Shown here: positions 7,104-57,451 of the stretch, one piece after another
Numbering within the stretch: position 1 is the first letter of the stretch
Layout of the letters: each line of letters starts with the position of its first letter
NCBI GenBank assembly: GCA_026874595.1
Contig: CM049309.1
Span: forward strand, 51,620,079 to 51,684,078
Source of the DNA: Sipunculus nudus
Lineage: Eukaryota; Annelida; Sipuncula; Golfingiida; Sipunculidae
DNA: 64,000 nt
Reading direction: 5' to 3'
Made by a program: the position numbers and the translations under genes
Notes under the pieces: model-generated
Told to the model about the DNA's origin: nothing
Seen by the model: the letters and a program-made list of their open reading frames with translations, nothing else
Databases searched by the model: none

Positions 7104-7983
7104 CTAGAATACAGGTCGTCGACAAGCGACTACGTGTATCCGCCAAAATCAGAGTAGGACGGGTAAAGTGAGGCATGGATTGAGTGGCAAGGGGAAATAG
7201 AGTTAGAAGTGTTACATATTAGCATGGATGTCTGCCACATTACATGATTGTAGGTGGCGCCAGCTGTTATTTGAATGAGAAACTGTCCAAATTGTATACA
7301 CATACTAAATTTCAGGTGAATAAGTCAAACCACTGCCGAGATATGAGTGATATTAGCCCAAGTCCAACGAATAGATGGACCCTGTGCACAAATGGTTGCA
7401 GGTGGCGCCAGCAGTTTCTTGTATGATAAAGAGCTATGTAAGATCTAAACACCTGCAAATTTTCAGGAAGATACGTCAAACCAGTCTGATGATATAAGCA
7501 TAGATGTCTGCAGCGTGAACGTGAATGTAGGTGGCGCCACCTGTCATAAAATCAAGAAAGCTTCCTGGGATGTATACGCCTGCCGAATTTCAGGGGAATT
7601 AGTCAAACCACTGCAGAGATATGAGTGATTTTAACCCAAGGCAGACGAACAGATGGACGCTGTGCAAAAATGGTTGCAGATGGCGCCACCATTTTTGTGT
7701 ATGTTATAAAGCTATCCAAGGGCTACATTTGTACATTTTTTTTCCTGATTGGTCAAACAAGTCCGAAGATATGTGGGTTAATGTGTCAAAACAGACGCAC
7801 AGATGGACGCACTGGAGAGAGGAAAAGTCAGAGGTCAACACCCGATGTGACCCGATAATTGGTGTAAGTTTCGGTAAAATTGATCCAGTAGTCTCAGAGG
7901 AGTTCTCCGGAAATGAATACGGCGGCGGCGGCGGATCCCGGTCAAAAAACATAGTATCCGCAAAACTTTATTTTGGCGGTTAC
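7104..7983 (-). mobile_element. Hairpin-ended element with palindromic tandem core (family H), complete-looking copy
   Basis: Left end is CTAGAATAC followed by a hairpin (arms 7115-7121 and 7127-7133, one mismatch), then GTATCCGCCAAAATCAGAGT (7136-7155). The core is four half-units of about 129-150 bp, each centred on a GGTGGCGCC-type palindrome (7253, 7400, 7530, 7680). Right end has a CGG run (7921-7936) and the subterminal repeat GTATCCGCAAAAC (7954-7966) facing TTTTGGCGGTTAC (7971-7983). Read on the minus strand, the order is subterminal repeat, tandem core, inverted subterminal repeat, hairpin, CTAG. This is the order of Helentron-type non-autonomous elements. Frames through it encode nothing recognisable. 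Confidence 0.6.
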
Positions 7984-8970
7984 AGTTATTTGCGCGATAG
8001 GCTGGACAGGGCAAACGGCGAAAATAACCTGCCCGCAGAATGTCGGACATGGGCTATTCCGCGGTAATGCACACTACCTGTAGGGAGTAGCTTGGTCGGG
8101 ACAACCTTTTTGGGCGAAAATAGAGGAACGTAGCACATATACCTGTTAGTTCCTCAGTGCATCGAATAGAAATAGATTTCAGCTTAATGTTTAGAAAACC
8201 TAGAAAAACCAGATTTTTTTAAAAATGTGTTTGCCTTATACTATTTATATCTGATAAATATATGTGTTATCTAGACTCAGTAAGGCCAGATAATACAAAA
8301 ATACCGTAACTTGCCTTTGTTTTAGATCTATATACATATTTGATTCGTTTGTCCCGGGAAGACTATTGTTGGATTTCCTCTGTTTATTTATAGAGGTTAA
8401 ACGCAGCCATGCATATTTTACAGTAACATTAACATAATAGAAATTTAGATGGTGTATGTAACATAAGGTGCTTCGGTTCATCAAACTCCGTTACCAGTAT
8501 AAATTTTGGACTTAGAGGTGTCAGATAAAATGCCCTTTCACGATGCTGCCAAAGATGTTTTTCATCTAGTGTGACAAAAAGGGCACCAAATCTTCTCTTG
8601 TTCTCCGGGTCCGAAGATATCGGCAGCCGCCATGCCTGACTTTACATTAATTGGGAATAAAAATATTTGTGTTGTGGTGCAAGATGAACAATGTTTGAGT
8701 GTTTAATATTCAACACGCGGTGCACTTGACAATGCAATCCCATTTAAATGATGTGCTAAAAGCAGAATAATGCACCAGCGTCATTCTTCTGTCAAAAACG
8801 GTTGAGTTTATATATTTGATGCACCGTTCCTTCACAACATTGTAAATCTTAAAAATCTTCTGCCTCATACGCAATAGGATAAAACACTGTTTCATAATTT
8901 ACAGGACCCAGTCCCGCTGGTTTATTCCACCCCGTGCGGTTTCAAATAAAAGAAACTCGGTGACACTTAC

Positions 8971-8996
8971 GTCGATTTTAGCAAAGCCATTCCCAT
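8971..8996 (-). CDS. Possible minus-strand first coding exon (speculative)
   Basis: On the minus strand an ATG at 8996-8994 opens MGMALLKS and runs into a perfect GTAAGT donor (8970-8965). It lies 39 bases from the consensus CRE at 9035-9042. No downstream exon was recognised and no family can be named. It could equally be chance. Confidence 0.15.
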
Positions 8997-9025
8997 TGTT
9001 TGATCCGTGCAGAGATCACATCACC

Positions 9026-9307
9026 ACGTGATGCTGACGTCAGATCTTGATTGGCTCAATTTGGCTGTGGTTTATAACCCTTCGGGGCCCCGTGCTACAC
9101 GGATACGTCCAGTGCCCGATGCGTGAAGCTGATTTAAAAGGCGGTGGAGACAACATGTCTGCTCACTGAACCTTCCCGTCCTCCTCAGGGTCCCGAGGCC
9201 ACCCTGGTTTAACCAGTTGTAACTCACACAAGACCTAGTTTGCTCTGTCCTCCATCATGTCCGGCGCTGCTGCAGAACATATCTCCTTGACCTCGTTCGT
9301 GAAATAA
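9026..9307 (+). promoter_or_regulatory. Candidate promoter with short first ORF
   Basis: Within 30 bases lie an E-box CACGTG (about 9026), a perfect CRE TGACGTCA (9035-9042) and an inverted CCAAT box (ATTGG, about 9050). A TTTAAAA motif follows at about 9132. An ATG at 9257 opens MSGAAAEHISLTSFVK and stops at 9305; a GTGAAA at 9299 could be a weak donor after TSF. The stretch is richer in GC and CpG than its surroundings. This is compatible with a real, possibly divergent, promoter. The downstream gene is not identified. Confidence 0.3.
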
Positions 9308-9518
9308 GGCAATTTATTTAAATCCCGTAATATCCCCCCCCACCCCAATAACTGACTTAAATCGTGTGCACCGGACACACTGCCATTCTCTCATAAAGAA
9401 AGGGGAAATAGGTAGACTTCCTGCAGAAGAGATATTTTACATTTTAGGACATGTTGCGCGTATTTTTAAAGTGAAACCAAACGCACCTACGCGGTCCGTT
9501 CATATATATAGCACGTAA

Positions 9519-9720
9519 CAGGGGCGGATCTAGGATTTAGGAAAAGGGGGGTCCAAATAAGGAGGACTAATAAAAAAATTAAAAAAAAGACCACCAGGTC
9601 CGGAAAGGGGAGTGGGGGTGCAGGCCACAAAATATTGTTTGAAACCCTTGATAAAGCTTGCAGCGGATGAAAAAGTGGGAGGTCCGGACCCCCTGAACCC
9701 CTCCCCTGGTTCCGCTTCTG
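9519..9720 (+). mobile_element. Short inverted-repeat element, 5-bp TSD family, copy 2
   Basis: 202 bp with terminal inverted repeats CAGGGGCGGATCTAGG at the left and CCTGGTTCCGCTTCTG at the right (reverse complement CAGAAGCGGAACCAGG). It is flanked on both sides by CGTAA (9514-9518 and 9721-9725), a perfect 5-bp target duplication. It is the second copy of the 2545-2748 family. Non-coding. The 162-codon minus frame across it is an accident of its G-rich strand. Confidence 0.85.
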
Positions 9721-12700
9721 CGTAAATTCGTCGAACGGTTTTCTTGTTGCAGCAAAGATAAAGTCAAAAGTATGAAGAGTGGAAGATATGTTTTCTAGTT
9801 CTTTGATTTGATATACAGGCACCCTCAGCTTAATCATTATATCAAGATTATTATTCAAACAAAAATGCGGGGTATACACCAAGGGGACATGCCTTGAATA
9901 ACCAGTTGCAAGATTCTTAGAAGTAAACGCGAAGTTAATGTATGGGTAAATATATTTCCCTACGCCGCAGAACAAAAGACATAACTAATGAGTCATTTAG
10001 CAATCATTGCTACTCTCAGCAAATAAACGGCAGCATATAGAATGATTCACCGAACCCACTCCATGTGTAGATTTCATAAATATTGTCATAATTGCAATTA
10101 CCATGACAACCACTTTCATCCTGAAAATATGATTCCTTCATTTGCCGTCAGGGTTTAACTAAGGTGTATCAACCGCTGTTGAATCGGCTTATTAAATCGT
10201 GATAGATATTACACTGGTTCCTAATCGTAATAATGGTCCTGCAGTTGCGCCTTCCTCACCTTCTCCAGTGGTCGATCTGACTCCTATATATTTCCTGGAT
10301 TTCCATATATTTTCATATGGTAAAATTGTCTCCAATAATTTCCTACTTTTTTCGGCATTTGGACTTTAATCTCTTATTTTTTCCTATAGTTTTTACTGCA
10401 AAATAATGTTTCTGGTATAACTTTTTTACTGAATAATTATTGATTAAATACATACTATATGGGTTTGTTATGTACAGCTTCATGCCACTTAAGCTTAGAT
10501 TCCTTATATGAACTGAATGTAGAATGCGGCATGCGAAATGGGTATTGAGAGATTTCATATGAAACTGCATAGCGGCATGCACGTTTTTATGTGTTGCCCC
10601 TGGATACCATCCGGAACCTTCAGAAATCGCTACTTGTAGCGATTCGTTTTTCCGGATGCGCACTCCGCATTTCCGATCCGCGCATTAGGAATCTTACCTT
10701 ATTTATTTAGTCAATACCGATGTTATACACATTCCGCATTCCGTACTTAAGGAATCTTAGCTTTAGTCATTGTTATGACAGTTTCGTTCCCTCATATCAG
10801 CGGATTTCATCAGACTGCGAGACCTTTACTTATATTAGTGGACGATACTGTCACAACAACAAGTAAGTCGCTGTGCAAAAAAAAAGTGATTTATACTGCA
10901 CCAGCCATATGCAATTGTTCAGAAAATAAGTGTTATATATAAACCTATTAATATGAAAATATTTAGTTCTTTTGTAGAACTGAGCATGTAAGTGTTGAAG
11001 TCATACAAGTGCAGCCATCTTAACAAATTAAACAGACATTTAGTAGCTGTTTGGAAAACATCTGGCCATCTTTAGTTATTGTGAAAAACACGATTGCAAA
11101 GTATTTCTCATATTGTGGCTTAAAATTTTTATAAACTCCCATATTTTTGTCTCAAGTGCTCCTATAAAATTCCTGCATTTCTTCAGGAGCCCTGCTTACT
11201 CACTTAACTTATTAATCCTGAATACAGCAGTTGGTATTTAGAAACTGTGGCCTCACCGATAACTCTTCCTCACAATTTATTTGGGCCAGCATTGAGCAGA
11301 AATGCATAGTTTATGCTTAAAGTCAAAACATAAAATTTACACACAATCATTGTGTATTCCATTTCATCTTTGGTAAAAAAAATTGAATTTAAAAAAGTTC
11401 ATTGAGATGATTAGGAAAATATGCAGAATAAAAAGTATGATGGCCAGCAGATACAAACAATCGTGTCTGAAATGGTCTTATATTGGTACCGCAATGCAGT
11501 ATTTCCAAGTTCCGATGGGATAAGATATGAGATGAGCATATATGGATAAAGTCCCACGGGGTAGTTCTTTTCCGACGTTTCAGTTTGAGGTATATATTAC
11601 GATTGTTTCTCCCGAATGAGTCACAAGTCGCGCTGTCACTTTCACTGGATTTATAGGTCTTCTTTCTTCTCCGCCCCGTCCGCTTACCAGTGTATGCCGG
11701 GTATTTACATGAATACAGGTCTGTTCCCTGGAGATATACGGGAAAGCCGATGTACTGGAAATTACAGGCTTGTATGTGGTATAATGGCAGATTTGGCTTG
11801 TGACAGACTTTGAATGAGAGAGTATTTATATAAATGGGAAGATGTGGGAAGGACAAGCTTAATCGAGACACTGTATACTTGATCGAGGATGTACGTTTGG
11901 GCGACTGTATAGGGTTAGGAGGATAACGGACTACATGTGATATTAAAGCCCGGTTTGTTTCTCTAAGTGGAGACATCTATATATAGATATTGAAGATTCA
12001 AGTGGGAAGATCATAAAGTCTAGTAAACAGAATATATACTTTATACATTTCGAAGTCGAGTCTTATGTGTTAGAATTAAATCAAAATGGTTAATTTTCTG
12101 TTCAATGGATTTTTTTTCTGCCGTATACAGATAGCCAACTTTTCTGTGGTCTGCTCTGGTCAGTCCTGTTTAATGCAAAGATATATTCATACCATTCGAA
12201 TATATTGATGACAAGGTTGGTGAGGACCTAAATCAAACTATCTTCTTTGTATAATATAGCCCTCTATAGATAATAGAACCAGTATATGCACATAAAATTT
12301 ACATTATATATACGAAGGAATAGGTGGTGACAATTTACCTGAACTATTTTATCAATTTATATGCTTTCATTTTTTATATAATTTTAGTTTGTTTATATGA
12401 ACACAATCTAGACGCTAACAAAAACTGAGCAAATTCCGGTTTAATATTCTGAAACAGAACGAATAAATGACTGATCAGCTGTACACCCGTCAAAGTTTTC
12501 TGTTCTCATTGGATATCAAATCACTTGTGATGCTTCATATTACTAATAATGTATATTGGCTATGAGCAGGATTTCGCAGTGACAGTGACGGTATACTACA
12601 TTAAGGAACGCCATGCGGTATATGTTCACCCCCGGCTCACACGACGTCAAAAATATAATGGATTTTATGTATTTTAATGTATTCATTTCGCTCAACATCA

Positions 12701-13790
12701 TCAGCCGTGGGATGTTGTGAACCCCACAGAGGATGCATGCGTGTCCCGAAGCTTAACAAAGATACTGCAAAAAAACCGTATCAGCCATCGCTCGGAAAAT
12801 TGTCTGTTTGTCAAACAAGAAATCCAATCGGCGGGGTAGCATCTCAGAGCAAAAGTGGACTATTAAATCATTATGCGGCTGGAAGGGAAATTGCAGCCAA
12901 TAGAATGGGGTGAAAACAGACCAAGGCTGGTCCATATCACGCTGTAGACCGATCTCTCACGGGGACTCGGACAACCCGGTGAGACATTCTGGCTCAGGTA
13001 TCTGAGATCTCGATTTCTGTCGTGATTTCTGTCCACAGATGACCATCCATAGCTTAGGTACACGGCTTTAATCTTGCAACATCAATAGAAGTCTATGCGT
13101 CCTGTGTTTGGCACCGGAAACCCGCTGATCAATACGTTGTTTAGCCAGACCGCGGCCAGGATTAATAGTTCGCATTCTCGCTGCGTGTTTCCGACCAGAT
13201 ATCGTGATTTCTCGCGGATTGTCGCGCGCTATTGAACACGAAGTGCTCTGAGAGTTAATGAAAGCCAAACGGCCAGTCGATCACTGGCTGGGGCTCAGGC
13301 ACGCATGCTAATAAATTTGGAACGGAACAATGCATAAAATGCTCGCAGTGTTTTCTCAAGAGCCAATTCAGTCGATATAACCTGATTTTCGTACACAGCT
13401 GGGTTCAGTAATAGAAATAATAAACTTAGTTCAACAGGAATTTGGTTCAACAGTAATGCAACTCATGATACAGTTTATTATTGTCTTGAGTATAAAATAA
13501 GAATTTCTAACAAAAAAGGACAATTAAATGACAGTGTAGGTTGAAAGAAGATGATTTTGGGTTCTTATAAAAAAAACAGAACTATGTGAAACTGTGAAAT
13601 GGTGCTGAGTAAAGTTTCAGCCATGAGAAGAACGTATTTCTGTGGCAGTAGATTGTAATTAAGAGGAGAATAATGTCGAGTTGCGTCTTGAGACAGACAA
13701 TACCGAGGTACCGCTGGTCTACAGTAATTCAACCCGGTTGTTTAATTAATGAGGCAGGCGATGTGCTGTGGCAAAAGGGCTTAGTTAAAA

Positions 13791-13878
13791 CTCGTGTGCC
13801 CTTGTTCTATTTAAACAAGATTTAACACGATTAATGGCTCGTATGCCCTTGTTATATTTAAACAAGATTTAACACGAG
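13791..13878 (+). repeat. Direct duplication of about 40 bp, 48 bp apart
   Basis: CTCGTGTGCCCTTGTTCTAT and the following TTAAACAAGATTTAACACGA (13791-13830) recur at 13839-13878 with two base changes. Confidence 0.9.
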
Positions 13879-14003
13879 GTTTCAGTAATCGATCTTATCT
13901 TGAAAAACGCAGAATAAACTATATTTAAACTGAAAGAAAAACAGTATGATCTAGAAGTTTTTAATTAATTTGTCTATCAAGATATACCTGAATTCAAATC
14001 TGA

Positions 14004-14006
<3 letters not shown>

Positions 14007-14065
<59 letters not shown>
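14007..14065. repeat. (TA)n microsatellite
   Basis: Uninterrupted TA repeat of about 59 bp. Confidence 0.98.
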
Positions 14066-14068
<3 letters not shown>

Positions 14069-14618: not shown

Positions 14619-14625
14619 ATATATA

Positions 14626-14695
<70 letters not shown>
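14619..14695. repeat. (TA)n microsatellite with one GTGT interruption
   Basis: TA repeat of about 77 bp, interrupted once near 14631. Confidence 0.97.
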
Positions 14696-20222: not shown

Positions 20223-21930
20223 CAATGGTGGCAGGTTGTTCCAGACTTTCGCACACAAACTTCTCAAGTACCGCCGTGACCAAGCACCGTATAAGTTGAG
20301 GTTATGTCGAAAACACGACGTAAGTGACGAGTCCAATAAACTTGGGAGCTTGTTTGTACATGAGACCGTTAAGAGGGTCTGGCCGCATATATTATATGTA
20401 CAGTAACTGTGGTCATGCGATCCATGCATGGCCATTCCATGCTAGTTGCTAGCGCGACTAAGTCCTGTCCTTGCTGAAACACAGTTTTCATTGTGCCGGT
20501 GTGGAGAATTAGGTTTCTAGAGGTTTTGCGGTGGCCGTGACTGTCCAGTGAGCGTGACGACAAGAGGTTCACCACCATCCAGTGGGCAAAACAAGGAATG
20601 GACAAAGTTTCACCCACTGCGAAACGGTCACGCAGTGCAAAAGTTCTCTCTGCATTGGTTTGCGTTAAGTGGCGCCGCGCATCGTGCGTGAGCATGCCGT
20701 CCATTCTGATTAGCGTAGAAAGTGTACAACAAGCCGGATAGTGTTGTAGTGTGCTATACATATATGCACAGCCCATAACACCCACGGCGCTGTGGTAACC
20801 TTGTCGGATTTGACCGATTCGCTGTTAGCTTGGTGACCCGGGGCCCTCTTAAGCGACAATTACACCATTCTTTGTGCCGAAAAATTGAGTTCAAGCAGCC
20901 AGGATACCTATCTTCCTTTCACTTAACTGCACACGGATATCACTAACGTAACCAGCAGCTGGAGCCGCCGATATGAGTAAGAAGAAAGATAAAGAAACCA
21001 CGGAATCATTCTGTAAGTTTTATCAGTTTTCCTAACTCCATCGTTAATAAGAGAGAGTACACAGCTCTGGCGTTTTTGAGTCGGCACTAATGATATAGGA
21101 CGATTACATTTTTTTTTCATGATTTGAATGTGACACCTTAATTTTTATTGCTATGCAGCTTACCAGGATGGTAGACCTAAATTAATCGGTATGCACGTGT
21201 CCCATCAGCCAGATGTTTAATAGTTTAATACTTTTACAAGGATGGAGCGATTAGTGCAGAAGTATAGAGGGAGGGGGTTGGTTTTGGCAATTTGTATGCA
21301 TGCATGAGCTTATGTGTGTTGGGGGGGGGGGTTATATAATTGACCGTAGGTTTACACTTTCTCCAGTGTTTACAGTACCGTGACTTGTAAACACCGCATA
21401 CGGGAGCTCGGGTAAAGAGTAATAAAGTACAGTGTAATAAGATACTATGATAGCTCCTTGTCAGCCATACAAGTTATTGCCTCCTTGAGTATTATGCTCC
21501 TCAGGCTTTCACCATGGCTTTCAGATGCCGGTCTCTGAAGGCTTATTGTGTAGATATGATTCAGACTACTTTCTGGTAATGTTAGGTTGTTAGGACCGCA
21601 CATGGCCCCAAAGAGCGGATTGCAATATAACAACTATAGCACTTGGTCCTGAATAATGGGGTACAATACAACACTCATAGGGAACGATACAGCAGTATAA
21701 GGACCCGTATGCAAACAAATCCTCTTCTACACACTTTCAGTCCAGTACATCAGTATAAAGGATTATGTCGGTGTATTCAGATTTTGAAAGTGTAAAGAGT
21801 GGAGTATATCATATGTAAGCCATATTTAGGTATATTTGTGACCGTGGTGTGGGGTTACCACATCTACACGTTAATTTGAGACCTAGTTCAGTTTTAATAT
21901 CTTTACGGTAGTATGTTTCATTGTATCCCC

Positions 21931-23300
21931 AGACAAATTCGGGATACTATGGTTTAAGCACGGTCGCGCCGCCGCTGCCGCCGCCGCCGATATTTCTATC
22001 AGGCGAGATAACTCGAAAAAATATTTCACAGTTCTTTACCAAACTTGACATGTCCGTAGATATGGGTGAGAGAACGAAGCCTATTTAATATGGGGTCATA
22101 AGCTTTACTAGGAGTGTGACCTTGATCTTGAAAGGTCCATTTTGGGGGAAATCACACAAATTCTTAAATACCCAAGAAATATTGCATGGATTGATCAAAT
22201 ATCAAGTTGACCGAAGATCTTGGATAGTGTTGTCATTTCCCGGAAACTGGTGGCGCCACCTATTATCCTTTTCTTGTTTTCGTGCCGTTTTATACCCCCA
22301 GCGATGCCACTTGACAGTACTGTGATCATGAAAAGTCAAAAGCCAATGGACAGATTTCTTTCTTATTATGGGTAGACATAGGTATGGGTTATGGAATAAT
22401 GTTTATTTAAATTGGGGTCATGACCTTTCCCATGAGAGTGACCTTGACCTTGAATATTGCCATATATGGTGAAAATCTCTCAATAAGGGATGCATGGATT
22501 GGTCAAAGAATCAAGTTGACCGAGGATCTTGGATAGCTTTATTTCCTGCAAAAGACAGGTGGTGCCACCTTCTGTGCTTTTCGTGTTTTCTTCTAATACG
22601 CCTTCTAATACGCCTTCAGACTGGGCTTAAATTGTGCATATCGATTGACCTTGGATACTTCCATCTTGTATTCAAGACTGGTGGCGCCATCTGCAATAGT
22701 TTTCGTGTGGTGTCCATCCGTACATTTGCTTAAGGTGGAAATTGCTCTAAGGAGTGGTTCAATGTATTGGTCTGAAATTTGGCATGTACAGCCATCTTGA
22801 TAAGTTTTCTCGTAAAGCAGAAGGTGGCGCCACCTACCTTACCGTTTTCATCGTATAAATTAAGGCCCTTTTCAAGGGATGATTTGCCGTATTGTGCCTG
22901 CAATTGTGCTTGTCCATAGATCCTGGATACCTCCATCTTGTATTCAAGACTGACGGCGCCATCTGCAATAGTTTTCGTGTGGTATCCATTCGTACATTTG
23001 CTTAAGGTGAAAATTGCTCGTAACTCAGGGGTGGTTCACTATATTGGTCTGGAATTTGGCATGTACGTCCATCTTGGAGAGTTTTCTCATAAAGGAGAAA
23101 GGTGGCGCCACCTGCCTTAACGTTTTCATAGTATAAATTTATCAAGAGTGATTTACCAAATTGGCCCCCATATTTGGTGCAAAAATATTGTTTCTCAAAT
23201 TGATAGATGGAAGAAACCATGGTTGCTTGCCACGTGTCAGTATATGCTGCTGAATATGGGGGCCTGTTCTTTAAGGGAGGGGGTAGAGGGGGGGGGATTT
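21931..23300 (+). mobile_element. Repeat block with GCC run and palindromic cores (family F3)
   Basis: Begins with a GCC-rich stretch (about 21967-21989) followed by 'atatttctatcaggcgagataactcg', written here only as a landmark by position 21989-22015. It continues as diverged tandem units. Palindromic GGTGGCGCCACC or variants occur at 22249, 22559, 22681, 22822, 22953 and 23100. One segment containing GGCGCCATCTGCAATAG is repeated 272 bp apart (22683, 22955), close to the 278-bp period of family H. GGGATAC(T/C)ATGG occurs at both ends (about 21950 and 23308). Boundaries are approximate. Non-coding. Confidence 0.55.
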
Positions 23301-24499
23301 ATTGTCTGGGGATACCATGGCACTTGCGGTGTCAAGAAATGTCTAGTTACAAAATGGTTTGTTGAAATGTTGGCTCTCTCACTATAATTCGAGAACAAGG
23401 AAGATTCCAGGTCGCTTGTTTCTACTCATAAATGGTTTGTATTTTGCCATTAGCTACAGAAACAAATGACATCAGCATTAGGGTAAGGATAGAACCAGTT
23501 CATAAAAGCCACTTTTTTATCTGTATTAATGTAAAATAGATGGTTCATGTTTCTACTAGATATTGGGAAAAGAAATGTTGTCCTGTACAGTATACACGCG
23601 GATGGGACTTTATATCTCCGTTTTATATAAATGAGACAATGACTGAATTGCTTGTCACATTTTGTCTCATATTACTATCTGCATAATAGAGTGGTATATC
23701 CGTATACCGGAAGCCAGCGATAAAGAGGTAGTATACTCTTATCGCCTGCCCAGGCCTTATATAGTGAAACCCTTATATATACCTCGATTAAAGGGACCCA
23801 TTCACATACGAGTCATGTTAAAATTACTTTAAGTATCGTGTTTTTACCTTAAAATATTATGATGTCTGCCAATATTTCATTCTAAAACTGTTTGCTTACT
23901 GCTCTACAAAAGTGGAAATAAGATTTCATCGAAAGCGATCAGTAGCCAAAACCATAAACAGCGCGCACGCCACCTGGTAGCCGTATAACATGAATTCACA
24001 AATCAAATTGTTTCAAACTTCTAGCCGGCATTTCTTCAGTGTCCTCCCTCCAGTTTCTCTTTCTTGTTTATAAGTTGTCGCACATGCGCAAGATCAGACC
24101 TCTAGTCACGCAGTATTGTAATGATAAACAGACACAGGAACGGACTCTGACTTTCACTTGAAACCTGGTAGTGTGGACTCGACTACATCAATGCAAAGTT
24201 GAACAAGGTACCCATGAGAGTAAAAATATAAACATTATCTGAATCATAACGTGACCAGTATTTCAATTGGTACCTAAATGCAGAGGAACGGAGTAACACG
24301 GCAAGGAATACCGATGTCACCCACGACGCCTTGTGAGGTATTCTGTGAAATTCACCGCTAAAGTCAAATCGAATATATCATCTGCTTAAGCCTCATTGTG
24401 TTTTAATGTTTAAAAAAACCGCATCATATGGCTACGCGGTTAGATTTATAACCGCGATAAAGAGAATATGTTACGTGTCAGCATACTGTACCAAACGGC
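23301..24499. other. Intergenic, possible repeat end only
   Basis: At 23788 TTAA is followed by AGGGACCCATTCAC, and CATGTT follows at about 23817. This resembles the left end of the TTAA-flanked element at 33471. A matching right end was not found. Nothing else is recognisable. Confidence 0.3.
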
Positions 24500-25162
24500 A
24501 AAGTGAGATTATCTGGGAGCCCAAGGAAAGAGTCTTGGTGGGCCCGGAAGTCTCGAGTAAGTGAGATGAGCTAGGAGCCTAGTGAATGAAAATTGGCACC
24601 GGAAGTCTCGATGGCAGAGTAAATGAGATGAGCTACGCGCATAGTGAATGAAAATGGGCACCGGAAGTCTCGTGAGATGTGCTAGGTGCCTAGTGAAGGG
24701 AAATGGGCCCCGGAAGTCTCGAAGCCAGAGTAAGTGAGATGAGCTACGAGCCTGGTGAATGAAAATGGGCCCCGAAAGTCTCAATGCCAGAGTAAGTGAG
24801 ATAAGCTAGGGGCCTAGTGAATGAAAATGGGCACCGGAAGTCTCGATGCCAGAGTAAGTGAGATTAGCTTGGAGCCTGGTGAATGAAAATGGGCCCCGGA
24901 AGTCTCGAAGCCAGAGTAAGTGAGATGAGCTAGGAGCCTGGTGAATGAAAATGGGCCTCGAAAGTCTCAATGCCAGATTAAATGAGATTAGCCAGGAGCC
25001 TATAATGAATGAAAATGGGCCCCAAAAATCACGGTGCCAGAGTGAGTGAGATGAGCTACGAGTATAGTGAATGAAAATGGGCACCGGAAGTCACGGTGCA
25101 AGAGTAAGTGAGATAAGCTAGGAGCCATGAGTGAATGAAAATGGAAATAGGAAGTCACGGTT
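24500..25162. repeat. Minisatellite, about 11 units of 62 bp
   Basis: The motif (G/A)TGAGAT recurs at 24503, 24561, 24623, 24672, 24734, 24796, 24858, 24920, 24982, 25046 and 25108, giving a 62-bp period with one 13-bp deletion. The conserved part of each unit includes AGTGAATGAAAATGGGC and GGAAGTC(T/A)C. Long minus-strand frames with recurring 'GPFSFTR'-like peptides are translations of this array, not a gene. Confidence 0.95.
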
Positions 25163-27984: not shown

Positions 27985-28935
27985 GTCTTTAAAACGCCAA
28001 TCATATTCTCGAATTACCCAGTCGCTTACACCATGCAGCGTCATCACAGGATCGTATGAACCAGTCACTCACACAGGCCTAATCATATGACACAGTTTCT
28101 CACAACAGAATTATCACTTGGATATTATGAGCCAACCGCTAACACAAGCCTGATCATTGGATAATTAAACCCAGTCGGTCTCTCCAGCCCACACAAGCGC
28201 CATCATGTATAGGATAGTATGTGCGATTGGCTCATACCGAAGGATTATGTGACCCAGTGGCTGTAACGGCGTGATCGTAGGATTATGTGACCCCATGGCT
28301 GTAACAACGTGATCGTAGGATTATGTGATTCAGTGGCTCATACCGGCGTGATCGTAGGATTATGTGACCCAGTGGCTGTAACGGCATGATCGTAGAATTA
28401 TGTGACCCAGTGGCTCATACCGGCGTGATCGTAGGATTATGTGACTCAGTGGCTCATCCCGGCGTGATCGTAGGATTATGTGACCCAGTGGCTGTTACGG
28501 CGTGATCGTAGGATTATGAGACTCAGTGGTTCATCCCGGCGTGATCGTAGGATCATGTGACCCTGTGGTTGTAACGGCTTGATCGTAGGATTATGTGACT
28601 CAGTGGTTCATACCGGCGTGAGCGTAGGATTATTTGATCCAATGGTTCATACAGGCGTGATCGTTTGATTATGTGACCAGTGGTTCATACTGGCGTAATC
28701 GTAGAATTATGTGACCAAGTGGTTCCTACCGGCGTGATCGTAGGATTATGTGACCTAGTGGTTCCTACCGGCGTGATGGCAGGATTATGTGACCCAGTGG
28801 TTCATACCGGCGTGATCGTAAGATTATGTGACCCTGTGGTTCATACCAGCGTGATCATAGGAATATATAACCAAGTCAATCACACCAGCGTGATCGTAGG
28901 AATGTATAACTCGGTCAACTAGACCAGCCTATTCA
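27985..28935. repeat. Minisatellite, about 24 units of 38-39 bp
   Basis: Consensus includes GATCGTAGGATTATGTGACC, then CAGTGG(C/T)T and a variable CATACCGGC or GTAACGGC ending. Unit starts at 28273, 28311, 28350 and 28388 fix the period. Units are very similar at 28.25-28.85 kb and decay toward both edges. A 13-residue repeat in the + frame at 28680-28922 reflects 39-bp units and is not a protein. Confidence 0.93.
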
Positions 28936-45345: not shown

Positions 45346-45394
45346 CTTGAGGCAGAAATTTGTCACAGGTCACTCAGTGGCAACTGCCTAAACA

Positions 45395-45700
45395 TTAGCC
45401 TAAAATTGGGCATGTTTATACATATTGGGTAGCTCTTGGTGTACAAGACTGGTGGTGCCACCTACAATAATTTTTGCACAGTGTATGTCCCTGCTAATTT
45501 CACAGGAGGGGTTTGACATATCAGTCTGACATTGGGCATATGTATATATCTTTTCCTTGTATATAAGACTAGGTGCCAGCTACAATCATTGTATCCGCCA
45601 AAACAGAGTTTTGCAGATACTATAATTTCAGTTGGACGCTGACGCTGCTGCCATCGCCGCATAGGTTTCTGGAGAACTCCTCCATAACCACTGGGCAGAA
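45395..45700 (+). mobile_element. Family H fragment
   Basis: A diverged half-unit with GGTGGTGCCACCT (about 45463) is followed by the subterminal hairpin GTATCCGCCAAAAC (45591-45604) facing GTTTTGCGGATAC (45608-45620). The end module TGGAGAACTCCTCC matches, in reverse, GGAGGAGTTCTCCGGA at 48490 and the like sequence at 7900. It stops abruptly where the next element's hairpin begins. Confidence 0.65.
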
Positions 45701-48350
45701 TTTTTAGCTCAGCTGACTATAAGTCATCTGAGCTATAGTCGTGGTCCATTGTCCGTCGTCCGTCCGTCTGTCCGTCCGTCCGTCCGTAGATGTGGCACGT
45801 TTTGAAACCGTAAGACCTAGGAATCCAAAATTAGGCATAATGTTAGATGTCCCCAAGATCTCTTACCAAGCCGAAAACTGGGTCTTTGCGACTTTGTTCC
45901 TTTGAGAAATTAAAGAAAAACCTCAATTTTTTATTAAAAACCTATTTTTACACTTCAGGACTGCCTAATATCAAAACCACTCATCTGTTTTTCCTCATAT
46001 TTACCATAGTTATTCCTCTATATAGTTCCTATGTACATGCCAGAAATTATGTCTGTATTATAAAAATTTAAAAAGTTATGGGCCTAAACATAATGATTTG
46101 TGTAAAAAATCAGGAAAGATATTTGATCACTTAACACAAAATATGTTAAAGCTATAAACTTTTTTTCCAGTAATATAACTTTAATTAATCAAAATTAAAT
46201 TGTATACCCAAAATTAGATCAAAATCTTTTAAATTTTTTAAAATATTAACAAAAATAAAAAATTAGTACCTTAAATTTTGCCCAACTTTGACCATGGCAC
46301 ATTTTTTCCCTGTAAGTACTGTGGATTTAATTTTCACAGCATGTTTTTTTTTAGCATTTTGTCTGTAAACACCAAAAATTTGAAACCAGTTGATCAAAAA
46401 CTGTAGATTTTATTCAAGCTTTCAAGCACCATGTAACATATTGTTTACATCAAACTAGTGTCATGCAGTTTGCAAGTGCTCAGCTCCCCAACTTCAGCTC
46501 TCAGTTCCTAAAATTTGGCATACAATTAGATGTCTCAAAAATCCCCTACCATGCCAAGAATTTGATCACTAGGACTTAATACCTTCGAGATATTAATGAA
46601 AATCTTCATTTTTCCAATAAAAATACATTGTTACACTTCAAAACAGCCTAATATCAAAACCACTGATCTGACTTTAATCATATATAATATACATATTTTT
46701 CTATATATTCTCTATGCACATGCCAGAAATGATGTCAGTATTGCGTAATTGTTTTAAGTTATGGGCCCAAACATAATGCACTTTGTAAAAAATCAAGAAA
46801 TATATTTACTCCCTTAACAAGAGGATTGCTGAAGCTAGAGATTTTTTGTCAGGGATGTAACATTATTTAATCAGGATTCAATTGAATACCCAAAATTAGT
46901 TCTGAATTTTTCAAATTGTATAAGTTATTAGTATAAATATAAAATTAGTACCTTAAATTTTGCCCAACTTTGACCATGGCATGTTTGTTTCCTGTGAGTA
47001 CTGTTGATATAATTTTCATATCATGCACACATAAAGATTTCAGCTTTTTAGTTTGAAAAGCTGAAAGAAATTGGCCAAAAATTGTAGCTTTTATTAATGT
47101 TTTTATGAGACCATGTCAGACCTTGGCTCTCTGTAGCACCTCTTGAGTCACCTGTATGTTGACCTGGTTGAACTTTCAGCAAATTATGCATGCTTGAGGC
47201 GAGACATAAACTGGGGCGTCCAGGCAGCTTTATATATATTGGCCAGCCACAGTTGATCTAGGTGTCCAACCCAACTCATCTAGTAGTTTTAACCAACAAC
47301 ATAACAATAAACAATAAATTAATAAATTTTTATTGGTTTTTAATAACAAATTAAAGAAAAATAGAAAAGGAATTTGTTAGTTGATAATAACAGGAAATTA
47401 ACTTGCAGTTACCGATGATATAAGAATCTTGTATCGATGGGTAGAATGTCATGTATTCCAAATAACACCATGCAGTCACCTATGGTAATTTTCAGTTCAA
47501 TTTTAATGATAAAAAAATAAATCATATTATTCATTGCTAATCATTAGGGATCATATGAAGGAAATTAATGATAGACAAAGATGCAGTTGATAATATTAAT
47601 CTATATTCCTACTGTGTCTAGTGTTTACATTGATGTGAAATTAGTCTAGAATGAATATATTACATTTATTTTTTTAATATAAATAAAAGCCATGAAACCA
47701 GGTACTTATGATCATTATTTAAATGTGTGAATTTTGTATATTCTGGATTCTCAACATCATTGTTTGGTTAAAACTGAATAAATACCAGACATGGTGCGGA
47801 TACTTAGCAAATTTATTTGAATACAAATATGAATATATACTCCATTATAAAATTTCTTGCATCAGAATAGGAATTCAGGTAAAAATTAAAGTATATGAAT
47901 ACCAGTGCAAATACTTTCGAAATGTATTCATGAATGCATTCATGAATATATTCTATAATATTATTTTAATAATCATTTCAGTTATATTTTATTTTTAAAA
48001 AATCATATGATTCTCTTATTATTTTTAATAAAAATTATATTTGGCACAATATTTGTTATTAAATTTTAATAAATAGTTAAACTCTTAAATTATATGTTTT
48101 GCTTATATTAGTTATATGGCCAAGTCAAAATCTGTGTGACAATAGCACTCCATTTGTTAATAAAATAAATGAAATTAATCCTCTTTCCTGTCTCCAAAGG
48201 TACTATCAAAATCATACATAAGCTAAACAACAACAACTCATAATACAGCTTATTTTTATTACCATATAAAACCAGCATGTGCCTCATTTCTAAATCATAT
48301 TTTTTTATCATATATATCAGCTGAGCGCCGTGACCCATAGGTCCCTTGTT
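45701..48350 (+). mobile_element. Hairpin-ended element F2, copy a, with a duplicated 682-bp core
   Basis: Starts TTTTT then AGCTCAGCTGACT (45706-45718) pairing with AGTCATCTGAGCT (45722-45734), one mismatch, 3-base loop. A GTCC-rich microsatellite follows (about 45750-45789). The core contains two diverged copies of a 682-bp unit: 'aattagtaccttaaattttg' begins at 46261 and again at 46943. The end is CAGCTGAGC, a small GACC/GGTC stem and CTTGTT (ending 48350). The terminal CAGCTGAGC is the inverse of the start. 47.2-48.3 kb is not recognisable core. Same family as 55545-57451 and 61142 onward. Assigning this right end to the left end is an inference. Confidence 0.6.
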
Positions 48351-48629: not shown

Positions 48630-50052
48630 CTAGAATATGGGTAGTCAACAAGCTACTACATGTATCCGCCAAAATCAGAGTAGGAAAGGTTAGTAAGTCA
48701 TTGATTGAGTGGCAAGGGGAAATAAGAGTGAGGTGTGTTGCATAAAAGCCTGGATGTCTGCAGCCGAAATGTGTATGTAGGTTGCGCCACCTACCACAAA
48801 GTCCAGAAAGCTGTCCAAGATGTATAAACATGCGAAAATTTAGGCAGATAAGTCAAACCACTACTGATGTAGGTGACACCACCTGCCACAAATCCAGAAA
48901 GCCATCTAATATGTATAAACCTGCAAAATTTTAGGCAGATAAGTCAAACCACTACTGAGATATGAGTGGTTAAAATCACTCATATCTCTGCAGTGACTTC
49001 ACTAATTCATCTGAAATTCGGCATGCGTAAACATCCTGGATAGCTTTTCTGATTTTATGACAGGTGGCGCCACCTACATTCACGTTTACGCTGCAGACAT
49101 CCAAGCTCATATCTCTGGAACCGTTCGACCGATCAGGAAAATTTTTTTGCACAAATGTAGCCCTTGGAGAGCTTTATAACATACACAAAAAATGGTGGCG
49201 CCACCTGCAACCATGTTTGCACAGTGTCCATCTGTTCATCTGCCTTGGGTTAAAATCACTCATATCTCTGCAGTGACTTGACTAATTCACCTGAAATTCG
49301 GCATGCGTATACATCCTGGATAGCTTTTCTGATTTTATGACAGGTGGCGCCACCTACATTCACGTTTACGCTGCAGACATCCAAGCTCATATCTCGGGAA
49401 CCGTTTGACCGATTGGGCCAAAATTTTGCATGTGTATAGATCTCACATAGCTCTTTATCATACACAAAACTGGTGGCGCCACCTGCAGCCATTTTTGCAC
49501 AGCTCCTGTCTGTTTGTCTGCCATGGGATAAAATCACTCATATCTCGGCAGTGGTTTGACATATCTGCCTAAAATTTTGCAGGTTTATACATCCCGACAG
49601 CTCTCTTGATTTTATGACAGGTGGCGCCACCTGCATTCTAGTTTATGCAGCAGACATCCAAGCTCATATCTTGGGAACCATTTGACCGATTTGGCCAAAG
49701 TTTTGCATGTGTATAGTTCTCACATAGCTCTTTATCATACGCAAAACTGGTGGCGTCACCTGCAACCATTTTTGCTCAGCGTCCATCTGTTTGTCTGCCA
49801 CGGGCTAAAATCACTCATATACATGTAGTGGTTTGACTTATCTGCCTTAAATTTTGCATATGTATACAACTTGGACGGCTTTCTGGATTTTGTGGTAGGG
49901 GGGGCAACCTACATACACAATTTGGCTGCAGACATCCATGCTAATATGCAACACTCTATTTCCCCTTGCCACTCAATCCATGCCTCACTTCACCCGTTCC
50001 ACTCTGATTTAGGCAGATACACGTAGTCGCTTGTCGACTACCCGTATTCTAG
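48630..50052. mobile_element. Family H inverted (fold-back) copy with dimeric 278-bp tandem array
   Basis: Both ends carry the same terminus facing outward. CTAG (48630-48633) opens the left terminus, whose hairpin is degenerate. At the right, GTAGTCG (50023-50029) and CGACTAC (50035-50041) form a perfect stem ending ATTCTAG (CTAG 50049-50052). Orientation flips at 48958-48987, where AGATATGAGTG meets CACTCATATCT. Right of this, a 277-280-bp unit repeats from 48971, 49251, 49529 and 49806. Each unit is two related halves, each with a GGTGGCGCCACCT palindrome (49062, 49194, 49342, 49472, 49619, 49749). No coding function. Confidence 0.75.
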
Positions 50053-50559
50053 TTTTGATTGAGCTTGATCCTAGAAATTCTTAAAACCAAAATAAAACAT
50101 CATTCATCAGCTCCCTATAAAGTATGTGTTGTATCCTCAAGCTAAGTTCACGTAGACCTGGCTTTTGTACACTATAACTTCTGGTGTTTACTATATATTT
50201 ACTACTGTATTTATAGATACATGTTCTCATAGACAAAGATGCGCCAACAGCATATGGTGTGGGGGACTTGGTTATTTCCGAGACATTAAATGCAACTTGA
50301 AACCTCAATTCAAGCCTCAGGAGTCCCAGTGCAGCTGCACTTGTATCATAGAAACTTATTTTATGTGATCACCTTAGTTGTGTCCCTGTCAATACCTGTG
50401 TTAACACAACTTTACATCTCAGGTCTCAAGAACTAGTACTTTTTAGATGGATGTTCTGTGAGGGTTTCTCTTACTGTTCAGTGCATGGTAACTACATTGT
50501 CAATTTGTCATCATAAAGTATATGTCCACAAATTAATTGTGTTCATTTTTTTGTTGCAG

Positions 50560-50621
50560 TCAAAGCATTCCTGGCACAAGCCAAGGAGGAATTCAACAAA
50601 AAATGGGATGAACCACCTTCA
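50560..50621 (+). CDS. PKA-C: PKA catalytic subunit, coding exon 2 (A-helix)
   Basis: Second coding exon, bounded by a TTGTTGCAG acceptor and a GTAAGT donor. With the G carried from exon 1 it reads VKAFLAQAKEEFNKKWDEPP then S, matching the amphipathic A-helix of PKA-C (vertebrate VKEFLAKAKEDFLKKWE). The Trp that packs against the kinase core is kept. The exon is 62 bp, which I recall as the length of the corresponding mammalian exon, so the structure appears conserved. Phase is 1 at entry and 0 at exit. It stands alone between introns of about 11.1 and 9.2 kb. Confidence 0.96.
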
Positions 50622-53548: not shown

Positions 53549-53587
53549 TGTGACAAAGGATCAGCTAAATTTATACCCTTTGTCACA
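53549..53587. repeat. Perfect 11-bp inverted repeat in intron 2
   Basis: TGTGACAAAGG (53549-53559) pairs exactly with CCTTTGTCACA (53577-53587). Confidence 0.8.
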
Positions 53588-54424
53588 ACAGAAATTTTAG
53601 ATAGATTCACTTTTTATTCCGATAAATAAATGTTTTATATCAGTTCAATATTGACAGAAGGAGGATAGTCATTTTATTGCATAAAGCACTGGTGATAGTC
53701 AGCAGTTACTAATGAAATAGTCAGTGTCCATGATGATAGGTTGATCACTCTTGGGGCTACCTTCTGTGCTCATATTTCACCGTGAGTGTACAGTGATAGG
53801 CTTACACCTCAGTGATGCTGTTCTAATTGTATCAATGTTTGCTAATGGCTGGCTATTGTAACTGTAAATAGCTCTTAATATGTCATACACTGTGTTTGAG
53901 GCGATTCATATAGTAAGATCCTTCAAGCATAGCTACAGTTGAGTGTTGAACATGGTCCAACTATTGTGAAATAGATTGTTTCAAGTGTGTAGAGTATATA
54001 TATATTTATCTAAAGAAGTCCAGGGCTGAGTTATTTATAGAACATTGACAATGAGTTTTTCCTATGATAGCCTTGTTACTTTGTAATGAAACCAGGCCAC
54101 CTGTTAGTGTCTTTCAATATTACATTGTGTACCCTGGTATACTGTTTCTCTCCATCAGGGTTGCCAGTTTGTTGATTCATGGCCAGATATCTCAGATTTT
54201 GCCATTTTAAACTCCCATTGGCTGTCAAAAATTTGTTTGGTCATACAGGAAAAATGGCAGAATTTTGGCCAAATCACATGGTTTTCAGGAATTTCCTGAT
54301 AATCCTAGAATTCTCATTCATATTCACGTCGCTGTTTAAGGTAATGACATCAGATCAACAACTGAAAGGTCAAAGGTCCATGAAGGAGTATGACTGTGCT
54401 TGTTATGTGTGGACATTGTGTGAC

Positions 54425-54837
54425 TAGGGCTGAAACGGGTACAAAATTTTGGACTCGAGTACCCGATAGGCATTACCCGACTCGGACTCGAGTACTCGTT
54501 ACTATGGCAACGCTGTAAAGTTTAACTGACATGTTTATCGATGCAAAACATACATAAATTTGACTTCGTGACTCCAAACTAAGGAATAGATATAGATACT
54601 AAAATTTAACAGAGTGGAAAAATCCATTCGAAAACATATAACTAATAAATGTGAGTCTCTTCAAAATAAACTGTACAGTATGATAATTACTTCGATAATG
54701 AATAAATAGGCCGAGACTTCCAGTAAATTTACAGTAATATTCATATATGCGTGTACATACACAAGTACTCGAGTCCAAATTTTGAACTCGAGTACTCTGT
54801 AAGTATTACCTGGACTCGAGTACTCCTTTCAGCCCTA
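54425..54837. mobile_element. hAT-type MITE with perfect 8-bp TSD
   Basis: 413 bp. Left end TAGGGCTGAAACGGGTAC and right end GTACTCCTTTCAGCCCTA are inverted repeats with few mismatches. It is flanked by TGTGTGAC at 54417-54424 and 54838-54845, a perfect 8-bp duplication. The TIR style and 8-bp duplication are those of hAT elements. The palindrome ACTCGAGT appears five times near the ends. No transposase frame. Confidence 0.92.
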
Positions 54838-55544
54838 TGTGTGACACCAGCAGTTAATGGTATCTGGTCATCTTGCTTTATAGGGGAATGTTCAAGGGAT
54901 CTAACAGGTCTTCCCAAAAAAAAAAAGATGCTGGGGTGGCCTTGTTTTACCAGGAATCCATGAGTTCATATAAACCCTATGTATGAAAAACTTAAAACAA
55001 CTTGTTCATTTGTCGAAATACACTCAGGCATATATATACTTATGGTCACATGAATCACAGCATTAAAATATAAATGAACATTTTTTCATACATATACACA
55101 TATATTAAAGTGCACATGGAAACAGCTTGTTTCTTTCCCTACAAACACTGTATGGGCCTCCTTTTATGCATGAATTAATTTAAAAAAAATGAATTTTTTA
55201 TACTGAATAGATTACTTAAATTATTTTCTGTTTTTCATTATGTGTGTAAATTACATATTTTACCGCTGTCCATTTCTGACTGGAAGACTGCAAAATGAAA
55301 ATATGAATATCAGGATACCATGCTTCACCAGTGTTCTTGTCTGTTGTCATCCATTGTGTCACAGCTGAAGTACCAAGGAGTAATGCCAATATTATTAATG
55401 TACAGTGAGCTTCACAGTTCAAATAATTGTTATTAAGGATTGATTAAACACACCATAACTCAGGCTGTTTTCAGTTTTAGGCCTGCCTTCTTTAATCTTG
55501 AAGATATCTAACAGTACCCTTCAGTTACTTGTGACCACTAGGTT

Positions 55545-57451
55545 TTTAGCTCAGCTGACTGTAAGTCATCTGAGCTATAGCGATCACTCTTTGTCCGTCT
55601 GTCCGTTGGTCCGTCCGTCCGTTAACCTGGCACAAATCGTAACCGCTGGACCTAGAAACTTGTAACTTGACATTCTGAGAGGTCCATGAAAAATCTCCTT
55701 GGAAACCAAAAAATTAGGTCTCTGTTACCAATATCCTCCAAGTTATGGGGCCCCAAAGTACCCCCTCAGAATAGTCAAAAATTTCATACAAAAACTTCAA
55801 TATCTCATTAACTACATCACTGATGGTCATGATTTTTGGCATACATATTGATCATGAGATGTTTCATCAGTTTCTGCAGACTGGTGGCGCCACCTGTATT
55901 TTTCAATTTTTTTACGAATTATTTTCTCTATTTTTGAGACCTTTAAAAATATGAACATCTGTTAACAGGGCACAAATTGTAAAGACTGGACCGAGAATCT
56001 TCATTCTTGACACAGTGAGAGTCCTATGAAAAGTCTCCATGAAAACCAGAAATAAGGTCTCTGTTACCCATATCCTTTGAGCTGTTGGGCTCCCAATTAC
56101 CCCCCCCCCCCCCCAGAATAATGGAAAATTTGATTAAAAAAAAAAAACTGCAACATCTCAATGACTACAACACTGATGCTCATGATTTTTGGCATACATA
56201 TTGATGAAGAGGTGTTCCATCAGTTCCTGCAGACTGGTGGCGCCACCTGTTTTTTTTTTTCAAATTTTTACGAATTTTTTTTCTCTTTTTTTTGAGACCT
56301 TCAAGGATGTAGATATCTGTCAACTGGGTAATGACTGGACCTAAAATCTTCATTCTTGACACACAGGGAGACCCATGAAAAGTCTCCATAGAAACCTGAA
56401 ATTAGGTCTCTGTTACCCATATCCTTTGAGCTATGGCACTCCAAAGTACAGCTCAGAATAATGGAAAGTTTGATACAAAAGCTGAAGTATCTGAACAACT
56501 AATGCAGAGATCACCATAATTGTTTGCATGGATATTGATCATTGAGTGTTTTATCAGTTTCTGCAGACTGGTGGCACCATCTGTATTTGTTCAGGTGTTT
56601 TTACAAATTTTTTTCTCAATTTTCGAGACCTTTAAAGATATGAACATCTGTTAACAGGGTACAAATCATAACAACTGGACCAAGAATCTTCATTCTTGAC
56701 ACACAGGGAGACCCATGAAAAGTCTCCATGGAAACCTGAAATTAGGTCTCTGTTACCCATATCCTTCAAGCTGTATGGCTCCAAAATACCCCCCAGAATA
56801 ATGAAAAATTTGATACAAAAACCACCATATCTTGATAACAATAACACTGATGTTCATTAATTTTGCCATACATATTGATCATGAGGTGTTACATCAGTTT
56901 CTGCAGACTGGGTGTGCCACCACTATTTTTTTTCAAATTTTTATGATTTTTTTTCTCTGTTTTTTTAGACTTTTAAAGATGTTGTTATATGTCAACAGGG
57001 TACAAATCCTATCAACTGGACCTAGATTCTTCATTCTTGTAATACAAGGAGGCTTATGAAAAGTGTTTGTGGAAACCTGAAATTAGGTCTCTGTTACCTG
57101 TATCCTTCAAGCTATAGGACTCAGAAGTACCCCCCAGAATAATGGAAAATTTGATACAAAAGCTGAAGTATCTAAACAACTAATGCAGAGATCACCATGA
57201 TTCTTTGCATGGATATTGACCATGTGTTTTTATTAGTTTCTGCAGACTGGTGGAGCCACCTGTATTTTTTTAAAGTTTGTGCATTTTTTCTCTATTTTTG
57301 AGATATATAAATACAGACACAATCTTGGCCTGATGGTTAATCTGTTTGATGCTTCAGTATAATGGGTATATACTACCATTCAGATGATAAAATTTCCTTT
57401 TACGAATCTCTTCCCAGTCAGCTGAGCGTCATGACCCATGTGTCACTTGTT
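55545..57451 (+). mobile_element. Hairpin-ended element F2, copy b, with five tandem cores
   Basis: Starts with the AGCTCAGCTGACT (55548-55560) / AGTCATCTGAGCT (55564-55576) hairpin and a GTCC tract (about 55590-55623). Five tandem cores of about 335-353 bp follow, each with a palindrome or its decayed form after CAGACTGG: 55883 and 56236 exact, then about 56571, 56909 and 57246. The end is AGTCAGCTGAGC, a TGAC/GTCA stem and CTTGTT at 57451. AGTCAGCTGAGC inverts the start. Short frames inside share peptides because the units are tandem, not because they encode protein. Confidence 0.8.

Follow-up and report, generated by a model that had tools for sequence, protein, structure and literature searches.

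Why should one short palindrome stay nearly constant in repeat units whose surroundings have otherwise drifted apart? The question is raised by a 64,000-bp stretch of the genome of the annelid Sipunculus nudus (contig CM049309.1 of assembly GCA_026874595.1, positions 51,620,079 to 51,684,078; hereafter the window), in which the 12-bp palindrome GGTGGCGCCACC recurs in three tandem-repeat families designated H, F3, and F2. An initial annotation of this stretch suggested that the palindrome is used, for example as the binding site of a dimeric protein or as a recombination signal. A conserved box of about 16 bp, GGTGGCGCCACCT(G/A)(C/T)A, has the palindrome as its core, and some functional use of this box is likely, because its conservation exceeds that of the flanks both with and without the CpG columns. 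The units that carry it look as if they form the central arrays of putatively non-coding HINE-like elements, which are non-autonomous elements of the Helentron (rolling-circle) type. With a probability of roughly 60%, the box is a putative protein-binding site that would be kept while the elements multiply and would decay neutrally after insertion.

All eleven exact copies of GGTGGCGCCACC first annotated in the window are confirmed at their positions (listed below), against a mean of 0.01 in 100 shuffles, and this is the most frequent 12-bp palindrome of the window once AT repeats are set aside. The corresponding 14-bp palindrome is exact at only 6 places, and 21 matches to the 14-mer are found at up to two mismatches (shuffle mean 0.05). 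Allowing up to three mismatches to the motif yields 36 places, 26 of them inside repeat units; the other 10, with two or three mismatches and outside arrays, were excluded from the unit set. The copies do sit in H, F3, and F2, as annotated, but the original list was incomplete, with additional copies at 45451 and 63824 and further families elsewhere in the genome.

The genome searched comprises 1,426,538,692 bases in 153 contigs, with the window at C4:51620079-51684078. It contains 111,729 exact copies of GGTGGCGCCACC, versus 14 of a reversed control, which has the same letters written backwards and is likewise palindromic with a CpG. When any two central bases are allowed, the counts become 169,977 and 614, respectively, so that about two thirds of the copies with intact arms retain the CpG. 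Copies changed at the outer G only number 5,842 and 6,018 for the two arms, those changed at the fourth base only 5,942 and 6,068, and those changed at the fifth base only 3,966 and 3,756. In the genome stretches collected, 86 of 96 copies with at most one mismatch lie inside units recognised by family profiles built from the flanks, with the 14 motif columns masked. Nine of the remaining ten have contexts designated F4 or F5, six of these nine stemming from overlapping or neighbouring loci, and one has another context. Among 20 exact copies picked on contig C1, mostly isolated, 11 lie in known units, eight in an F4 context, and one in an F5 context.

Alignment of the window units separates the motif from its surroundings. 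Between-family identity is 0.83 over the 14 motif columns, compared with 0.431 over the flanks and 0.573 in the best other 14-column block, and it is 0.849 for the motif without its two CpG columns. Within the flanks, G/C columns have a between-family identity of 0.38 and A/T columns of 0.459. Over seven subfamily consensuses, 8 of 12 core columns are invariant versus 8 of 128 flank columns, and none of the 45 flank columns with a G/C majority is invariant. The core figure is a low estimate, because consensus ties in two-row subfamilies were settled alphabetically, which in F3C masks the common GGTGG arm. The same contrast exists within H: in type A, changes amount to 7/96 in the motif and 195/1,020 in the flanks, with 1 of 106 flank blocks matching the core, and in type B to 3/60 and 99/637, with 6 of 106 blocks matching.

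The window units were first collected by their motif, and a motif-blind search was therefore used as a check. In the window, this search recovers the 26 units and one more, at 45496-45590, with a decayed motif. In a genome sample of 25 stretches of 10 kb at round coordinates, the masked profile recruits 80 units in nine stretches. Seven of these, with an incomplete core, were dropped, and the 73 scored units comprise 30 with an exact motif, 27 with one change, 10 with two, and six with three. On average, the majority base has a frequency of 0.918 in core columns (0.939 when CpG is left out) and of 0.715 in flank columns, and none of 102 flank blocks reaches the core. Recruitment with a single profile gives 0 of 105 such blocks for H and 0 of 104 for F3. 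The contrast is, if anything, underestimated, because recruitment by flanks favours units with conserved flanks. The expectation that the motif outlasts its surroundings is thus borne out between families, within H, and in the motif-blind sample, with CpG columns excluded as well as included; equal divergence of motif and flanks is not found overall, and for F2 taken alone the excess is not clear.

The conserved block is not symmetric. Of the 26 units in the window, 11 have A and 15 have T at position 1, and 25 have T at position 14. In the motif-blind genome units, position 1 is T in 45 of 77 and A in 30 of 77, and T14 is present in 73 of 74; beyond the 14-mer, at positions 15 to 17, which the recruiting profile left unmasked, position 15 is G or A in 71 of 74, position 16 is C or T in 74 of 74, and A17 is present in 73 of 74. 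Matches to GGTGGCGCCACCTNNA in the genome number 48,160 and 47,710 on the two strands, versus 111,729 exact palindromes; a copy that shows the pattern at either side would have been counted two times, and such copies are, to judge from the position table, rare. These counts, together with the position table, indicate a 12-bp palindrome with a one-sided extension, and the 14-mer first described as a symmetric unit does not stand as such. The suggestion of a dimeric protein retains the 12 symmetric base pairs in its favour, but the extension on one side disfavours a purely symmetric dimer. In the window units, the left arm matches at 142 of 156 positions and the right arm at 146 of 156. C-to-T transitions account for 11 of the 24 core changes, and the position most often changed is 7, the C of the CpG, with seven changes.

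The three families, initially taken to be different, look like remote relatives that belong to one old tandem-repeat family rather than to a recent one, and the alternative that all three are a single recent family fails. H and F3 are related around the motif: the masked H profile recovers F3 units (best E 2.2e-9), and the masked F3 profile recovers H (best E 1.3e-8). The motif spacing of H alternates between about 129 and 149 bp, and the F3 intervals are 309, 122, 143, 129, and 149 bp, the last two equal to the H alternation. In a gapless upstream comparison of seven unit sets at offsets from -12 to 12, the best offset is at most three bases from zero in 19 of 21 pairs; the outlying values are -6 for F3A and F2 and -9 for F2 and the single unit X. 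Boxes common to the unit alignment upstream of the motif are ATATCTC, (T)TTGGCAT, and ATCTTGGATAG. F2 is the weakest link, since the masked F3 profile matches one F2 unit at E 0.14 and the masked F2 profile matches no other family; the case for its kinship is made by the shared offset and the upstream boxes.

The F4 and F5 contexts share the extension of the box: all 12 aligned F4 copies have T14 and 10 of them the complete TGCA, which both F5 copies have as well. The masked profiles have no match to F4 or F5 at E 1, and the H profile has a weak collinear match at the ATCTC box when run on an F4-only database (best E 3.4e-4). F4 and F5 copies at three loci (L037, L044, and L046) lie near repeats with periods of 177-180 and 281-289 bp, which are perhaps further HINE-like elements.

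The resemblance of the carrier units to HINE-like elements comes from the ends that adjoin the arrays. On the 5' side stand a subterminal inverted repeat (subTIR), an inverted repeat complementary to it, and a microsatellite, in this order; the array is followed by a 3' subTIR and a 3' hairpin, the last clear only in H and not clearly found after the 3' subTIR in E3 or E4. The subTIRs pair over 14 of 15 bases in E1, 17 of 18 in E3, and 13 of 13 in E4, and the 5' inverted repeat is complementary to the 5' subTIR over 10 of 12, 10 of 11, and 14 of 16 bases, respectively, each pairing being the best near-match within a chosen stretch, without a shuffle control. The left-flank microsatellite is (GCC)n in E1, GCC-rich in E3, and of GTCC type in E4. 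The hairpin stem of H measures 7 bp without mismatch at the right end of E2, 7 bp with one mismatch in E1, and 5 bp at the left end of E2. The features of the window are as follows.

7115..7133, minus: E1 (family H) 3' hairpin, 7-bp stem, 1 mismatch
7135..7149, minus: E1 3' subTIR, pairs with 7970-7984 (14/15)
7216..7773, minus: E1 central array, four motif-bearing units, spacing 148/129/149
7253..7264, minus: E1 motif, 1 mismatch
7401..7412, minus: E1 motif, 1 mismatch
7530..7541, minus: E1 exact motif
7679..7690, minus: E1 motif, 1 mismatch
7920..7934, minus: E1 left-flank (GCC)n microsatellite
7954..7965, minus: E1 5' inverted repeat, complementary to the 5' subTIR
7970..7984, minus: E1 5' subTIR
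21919..21936, plus: E3 (family F3) 5' subTIR, pairs with 23302-23319 (17/18)
21941..21951, plus: E3 5' inverted repeat
21967..21989, plus: E3 GCC-rich microsatellite, approximate limits
22167..23150, plus: E3 central array, six units
22249..22260, plus: E3 exact motif
22558..22569, plus: E3 motif, 1 mismatch (CpG to TpG)
22680..22691, plus: E3 motif, 1 mismatch
22823..22834, plus: E3 exact motif
22952..22963, plus: E3 motif, 3 mismatches
23101..23112, plus: E3 exact motif
23302..23319, plus: E3 3' subTIR
45370..45590, plus: array remnant X, two H-like units, motif of the second decayed
45451..45462, plus: X motif, 1 mismatch (CpG to TpG), absent from the earlier list
48641..48674, minus: E2 left end, H-type 3' subTIR and hairpin, reversed
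48739..48967, minus: E2 inverted array part, two units, motifs at 48780 (1 mismatch) and 48872 (2 mismatches)
48978..49950, plus: E2 direct array part, seven units
49063..49074, plus: E2 exact motif
49194..49205, plus: E2 exact motif
49343..49354, plus: E2 exact motif
49472..49483, plus: E2 exact motif
49620..49631, plus: E2 exact motif
49749..49760, plus: E2 motif, 1 mismatch
49898..49909, plus: E2 motif, 3 mismatches
50012..50041, plus: E2 right end, 3' subTIR and hairpin with perfect 7-bp stem
55549..55561, plus: E4 (family F2) 5' subTIR, pairs with 57415-57427 (13/13)
55564..55579, plus: E4 5' inverted repeat
55593..55623, plus: E4 GTCC-type microsatellite
55621..57303, plus: E4 central array, period about 340, five motif positions
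55883..55894, plus: E4 exact motif
56236..56247, plus: E4 exact motif
56570..56581, plus: E4 motif, 2 mismatches
56910..56921, plus: E4 motif, 3 mismatches
57249..57260, plus: E4 motif, 1 mismatch
57415..57427, plus: E4 3' subTIR
61142..61205, plus: E5 (second F2-type element) left end
63740..63879, plus: E5 unit, motif with 2 mismatches at 63824

In E1, E3, and E4 and in both halves of E2, the array is oriented in accordance with the ends. At six further loci (L044, L046, L058, L059, L060, and L087), the arrays also point constantly relative to the adjoining ends of their own family. The order of parts recurs in arbitrarily placed genome stretches: in L058, 11 units lie between a left and a right end of H type, L044 and L087 have the same succession with 10 and 8 units, and in L059 three units lie between a left and a right end of F2 type.

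E1, E3, X, E2, and E4 are overlapped by 16 open frames of at least 75 aa, and the nine of these searched against Pfam gave no match over the cut-off; 20 of 96 open frames of at least 75 aa, plus ten more in or near the elements, likewise contain no Pfam family over the cut-off. Matches below it are weak (FAA_hydrolase_N, E 0.083; GTF2I, E 0.053). Rfam returns nothing above the gathering score, and a tRNA scan finds no tRNA. The genome has 143 matches to the Rep domain PF14214, from 150 of 195 candidates scored, and seven of these lie in open frames of more than 2,000 aa; Rep-coding rolling-circle elements therefore exist in this genome. A long Helitron-like Rep frame on contig C8 is followed downstream by a 319-bp tandem array of 5.4 copies (L089:4-1751).

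Because the box is kept amid diverging flanks and no coding part has been found so far, it is read as a binding site that would be important for the spread of the elements; from its conservation, we infer the protein. The box sits once per unit of an old tandem-repeat family in the arrays of several HINE-like elements. In this proposal, an element would multiply better if its copy retained a series of good boxes. The bound protein, which could be the host's or that of an autonomous partner, may open chromatin, drive transcription or replication of the element, or load replication machinery. Selection would work between copies as they multiply; once inserted, each would decay neutrally, fastest at CpG. 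The C-to-T changes, the excess at position 7, and the counts for the central bases in the genome fit such a decay. The central repeats of HINEs have mostly been discussed as passengers and satellite seeds. A box that is nearly fixed over families with about 43% flank identity, with more than 100,000 perfect copies, implies that central arrays may serve the element in some way, and the box is itself a ready probe with which the protein could be fished out.

Several observations weigh against this interpretation. Within F2, changes amount to 8/72 in the motif and 115/752 in the flanks, with 33 of 105 flank blocks as conserved as the core, and the F2 profile alone places 12 of 95 flank blocks at or above the core in the genome sample; taken by itself, F2 shows no clear advantage of the motif over its flanks. 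The first 20 stretches of the sample (200 kb) are motif-rich, with 31 exact copies versus 15.7 expected. The F3 profile recruits one unit with seven motif mismatches, and 5 of 66 recruited units have no motif at up to three mismatches in the match or within 20 bp of it. Units from the same array do not count as independent, window units served to train the flank profile, and all the evidence is the sequence of a single species' genome. F4 and F5 were chosen via the motif, so the F4 conservation figure is biased and was set aside. Around one Rep locus, no motif at up to two mismatches is present in 3.5 kb upstream and 5 kb downstream, and the surroundings of this locus, whose own ends were not located, match the left ends of H and F3 weakly and in a chance-like manner (E 0.083 and 0.011).

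CTCF binding sites carried by transposons are known, and the box might be a site for CTCF or for a CTCF-like multi-zinc-finger architectural host protein, in which case the elements would spread insulator-like sites. On the strand opposite the unit, the box reads T(G/A)(C/T)AGGTGGCGC, and this strand fits the last 11 positions of the 14-bp CTCF consensus CCASYAGRKGGCRS in 36 of 71 sampled units; the 9-bp core of the consensus is present in 40 of 71 on the opposite strand and in 48 of 71 on either strand. An asymmetric block of this kind is more readily explained by such a protein than by a symmetric dimer. The likeness to transposon-carried CTCF sites, a mobile repeat with a G+C-rich AGGTGGCGC core, ends at the full consensus, which occurs in none of the 71 units and speaks against canonical CTCF. 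A CTCF site would also not need a left arm nearly as conserved as the right. No paper came up in a literature text search for AGGTGGCG in connection with invertebrate CTCF motifs, and none of the matches listed contains dCTCF and AGGTGGCGC together. A CTCF-like protein appears unlikely, and less likely still is the wider scenario in which a rolling-circle superfamily would have scattered more than 100,000 near-identical sites for one CTCF-like chromatin or architectural protein of the host, held by selection on the elements through deep divergence of the flanks and arranged in rows of about 3-11 at spacings of 129/149 or 340 bp, near the nucleosome scale. By analogy with the repeated Rep sites (iterons) of rolling-circle replicons, the box could instead be bound by the Rep/helicase or an accessory protein of an autonomous Helentron and aid mobilisation. 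The location of most copies in rolling-circle-type arrays of fixed orientation (the 86 of 96 in recognised units) and the 143 PF14214 matches agree with this idea, but the ends of H and F2 differ in sequence and therefore may not share a transposase, and the surroundings of the one Rep locus examined out of 143 lack the motif. Binding by Rep or such an accessory protein likewise appears unlikely.

The remaining two explanations are improbable. The initial suggestion of a recombination signal would make the box a site at which tandem units are formed or exchanged, as proposed for CENP-B-box-like motifs of other satellites. For bivalve satellites, the available text of PMC5139131 discusses palindromes and conserved motifs close to the junctions, and one shortened interval, with motifs 92 bp apart at 48780 and 48872, would fit such exchange. 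The claim nevertheless finds little support, as none of six placed array ends in E1, E2, and E4 falls in a motif (distances of 33, 37, 38, 51, 83, and 265 bp), and the inversion centre of E2, placed by eye, is about 90 bp from the nearest motif. It is just as improbable that the box has no function and appears conserved through low mutability or homogenisation by gene conversion. The small difference between motif and flanks in F2 would suit this explanation, but in an A+T-rich genome a G+C-rich block with a CpG would be expected to mutate faster, the G/C columns of the flanks are less conserved than the A/T columns, and gene conversion should homogenise the adjoining bases too. A putative protein-binding site under selection during multiplication of the elements remains the preferred interpretation.

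Elements of similar design are known from the oyster Crassostrea gigas. In the available text of PMC7492417, Cg_HINE has a left flank with a subTIR, an inverted repeat, and a microsatellite, a right flank with a subTIR and a palindrome, and a central array of satellite-like units of constant orientation, and its CL4 monomers share only two conserved segments with CL1, 2, 10, and 13. The elements described here are alike in flank substructures, satellite-like array, and constant orientation, and differ in unit length, with Cg_HINE monomers averaging 140-180 bp and the present units having an alternating spacing of about 129/149 bp or a length of about 340 bp. HINEs with satellite-like arrays, and short segments common to otherwise unlike monomers, are thus already published for oysters. 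The box is not stated in the text of PMC7492417, the consensus sequences of which are in figures and supplements outside the comparison. The general DINE-1/HINE design, as given in the available text of PMC4067079, agrees in architecture, with subTIRs, a 5' inverted repeat (DINE-1), a microsatellite, optional central repeats, and a 3' stem-loop.

BIV160/Cg170/pearl is an old bivalve family with two conserved motifs, related to repeats in such elements, and a conserved palindrome of DTC84 is said to lie near the repeat junction, according to the passages available from PMC5139131, PMC7348941, and PMC5874043. In the window, the best matches to the two printed BIV160 primers of PMC5139131 have seven (bivF) and five (bivR) mismatches, and this comparison, made via these primers only, gives no support for membership of BIV160/Cg170. 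The passages on related bivalve families do not show the motif, which published consensus files may hold. In a text search of the literature for the motif and its pieces, covering text outside supplements and figures, none of the matches listed is by its title a mollusc or transposon paper, and none was seen to give the motif in a comparable setting. The HINE-like elements described here stand out by an unusually strong conserved box.

Among the literature matches to pieces of the motif, a guide sequence in the available text of a mouse alpha-globin insulator study contains GTGGCGCCACCT, which is a lead only, and another match is a silkworm guide sequence. The E2F site, TTTSSCGC, was rejected as a candidate, being present in 0 of 71 sampled units. 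Also rejected were 35 loci with the motif context from viral contig scans (8, 7, and 0 loci) and a genome contig scan (20 loci), which are taken as chance occurrences in phages and bacteria. None of them matches the motif-masked unit profile at E 0.1, and five match the unmasked profile weakly (best E 6.6e-4, L031).

Several other structures occur in the window. E2 (48641-50041) is a composite H-type element with two opposed right ends, the array reversing near 48975, and no left end was found between them. At 45588-45779, an H-type left end abuts the end of X, and an F2-type left end with GTCC repeats lies at 45701, giving nested element ends. The tandem arrays at 28241-28901 and 24555-25144, with 39-bp and about 62/124-bp units, contain no motif at up to three mismatches. 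E5 is split by a 2.3-kb insertion (61355-63661), which by eye is flanked by the 5-bp direct repeat CTCTG and has the 10-bp ends CTGTGTTTCC and GGAAACACAG.

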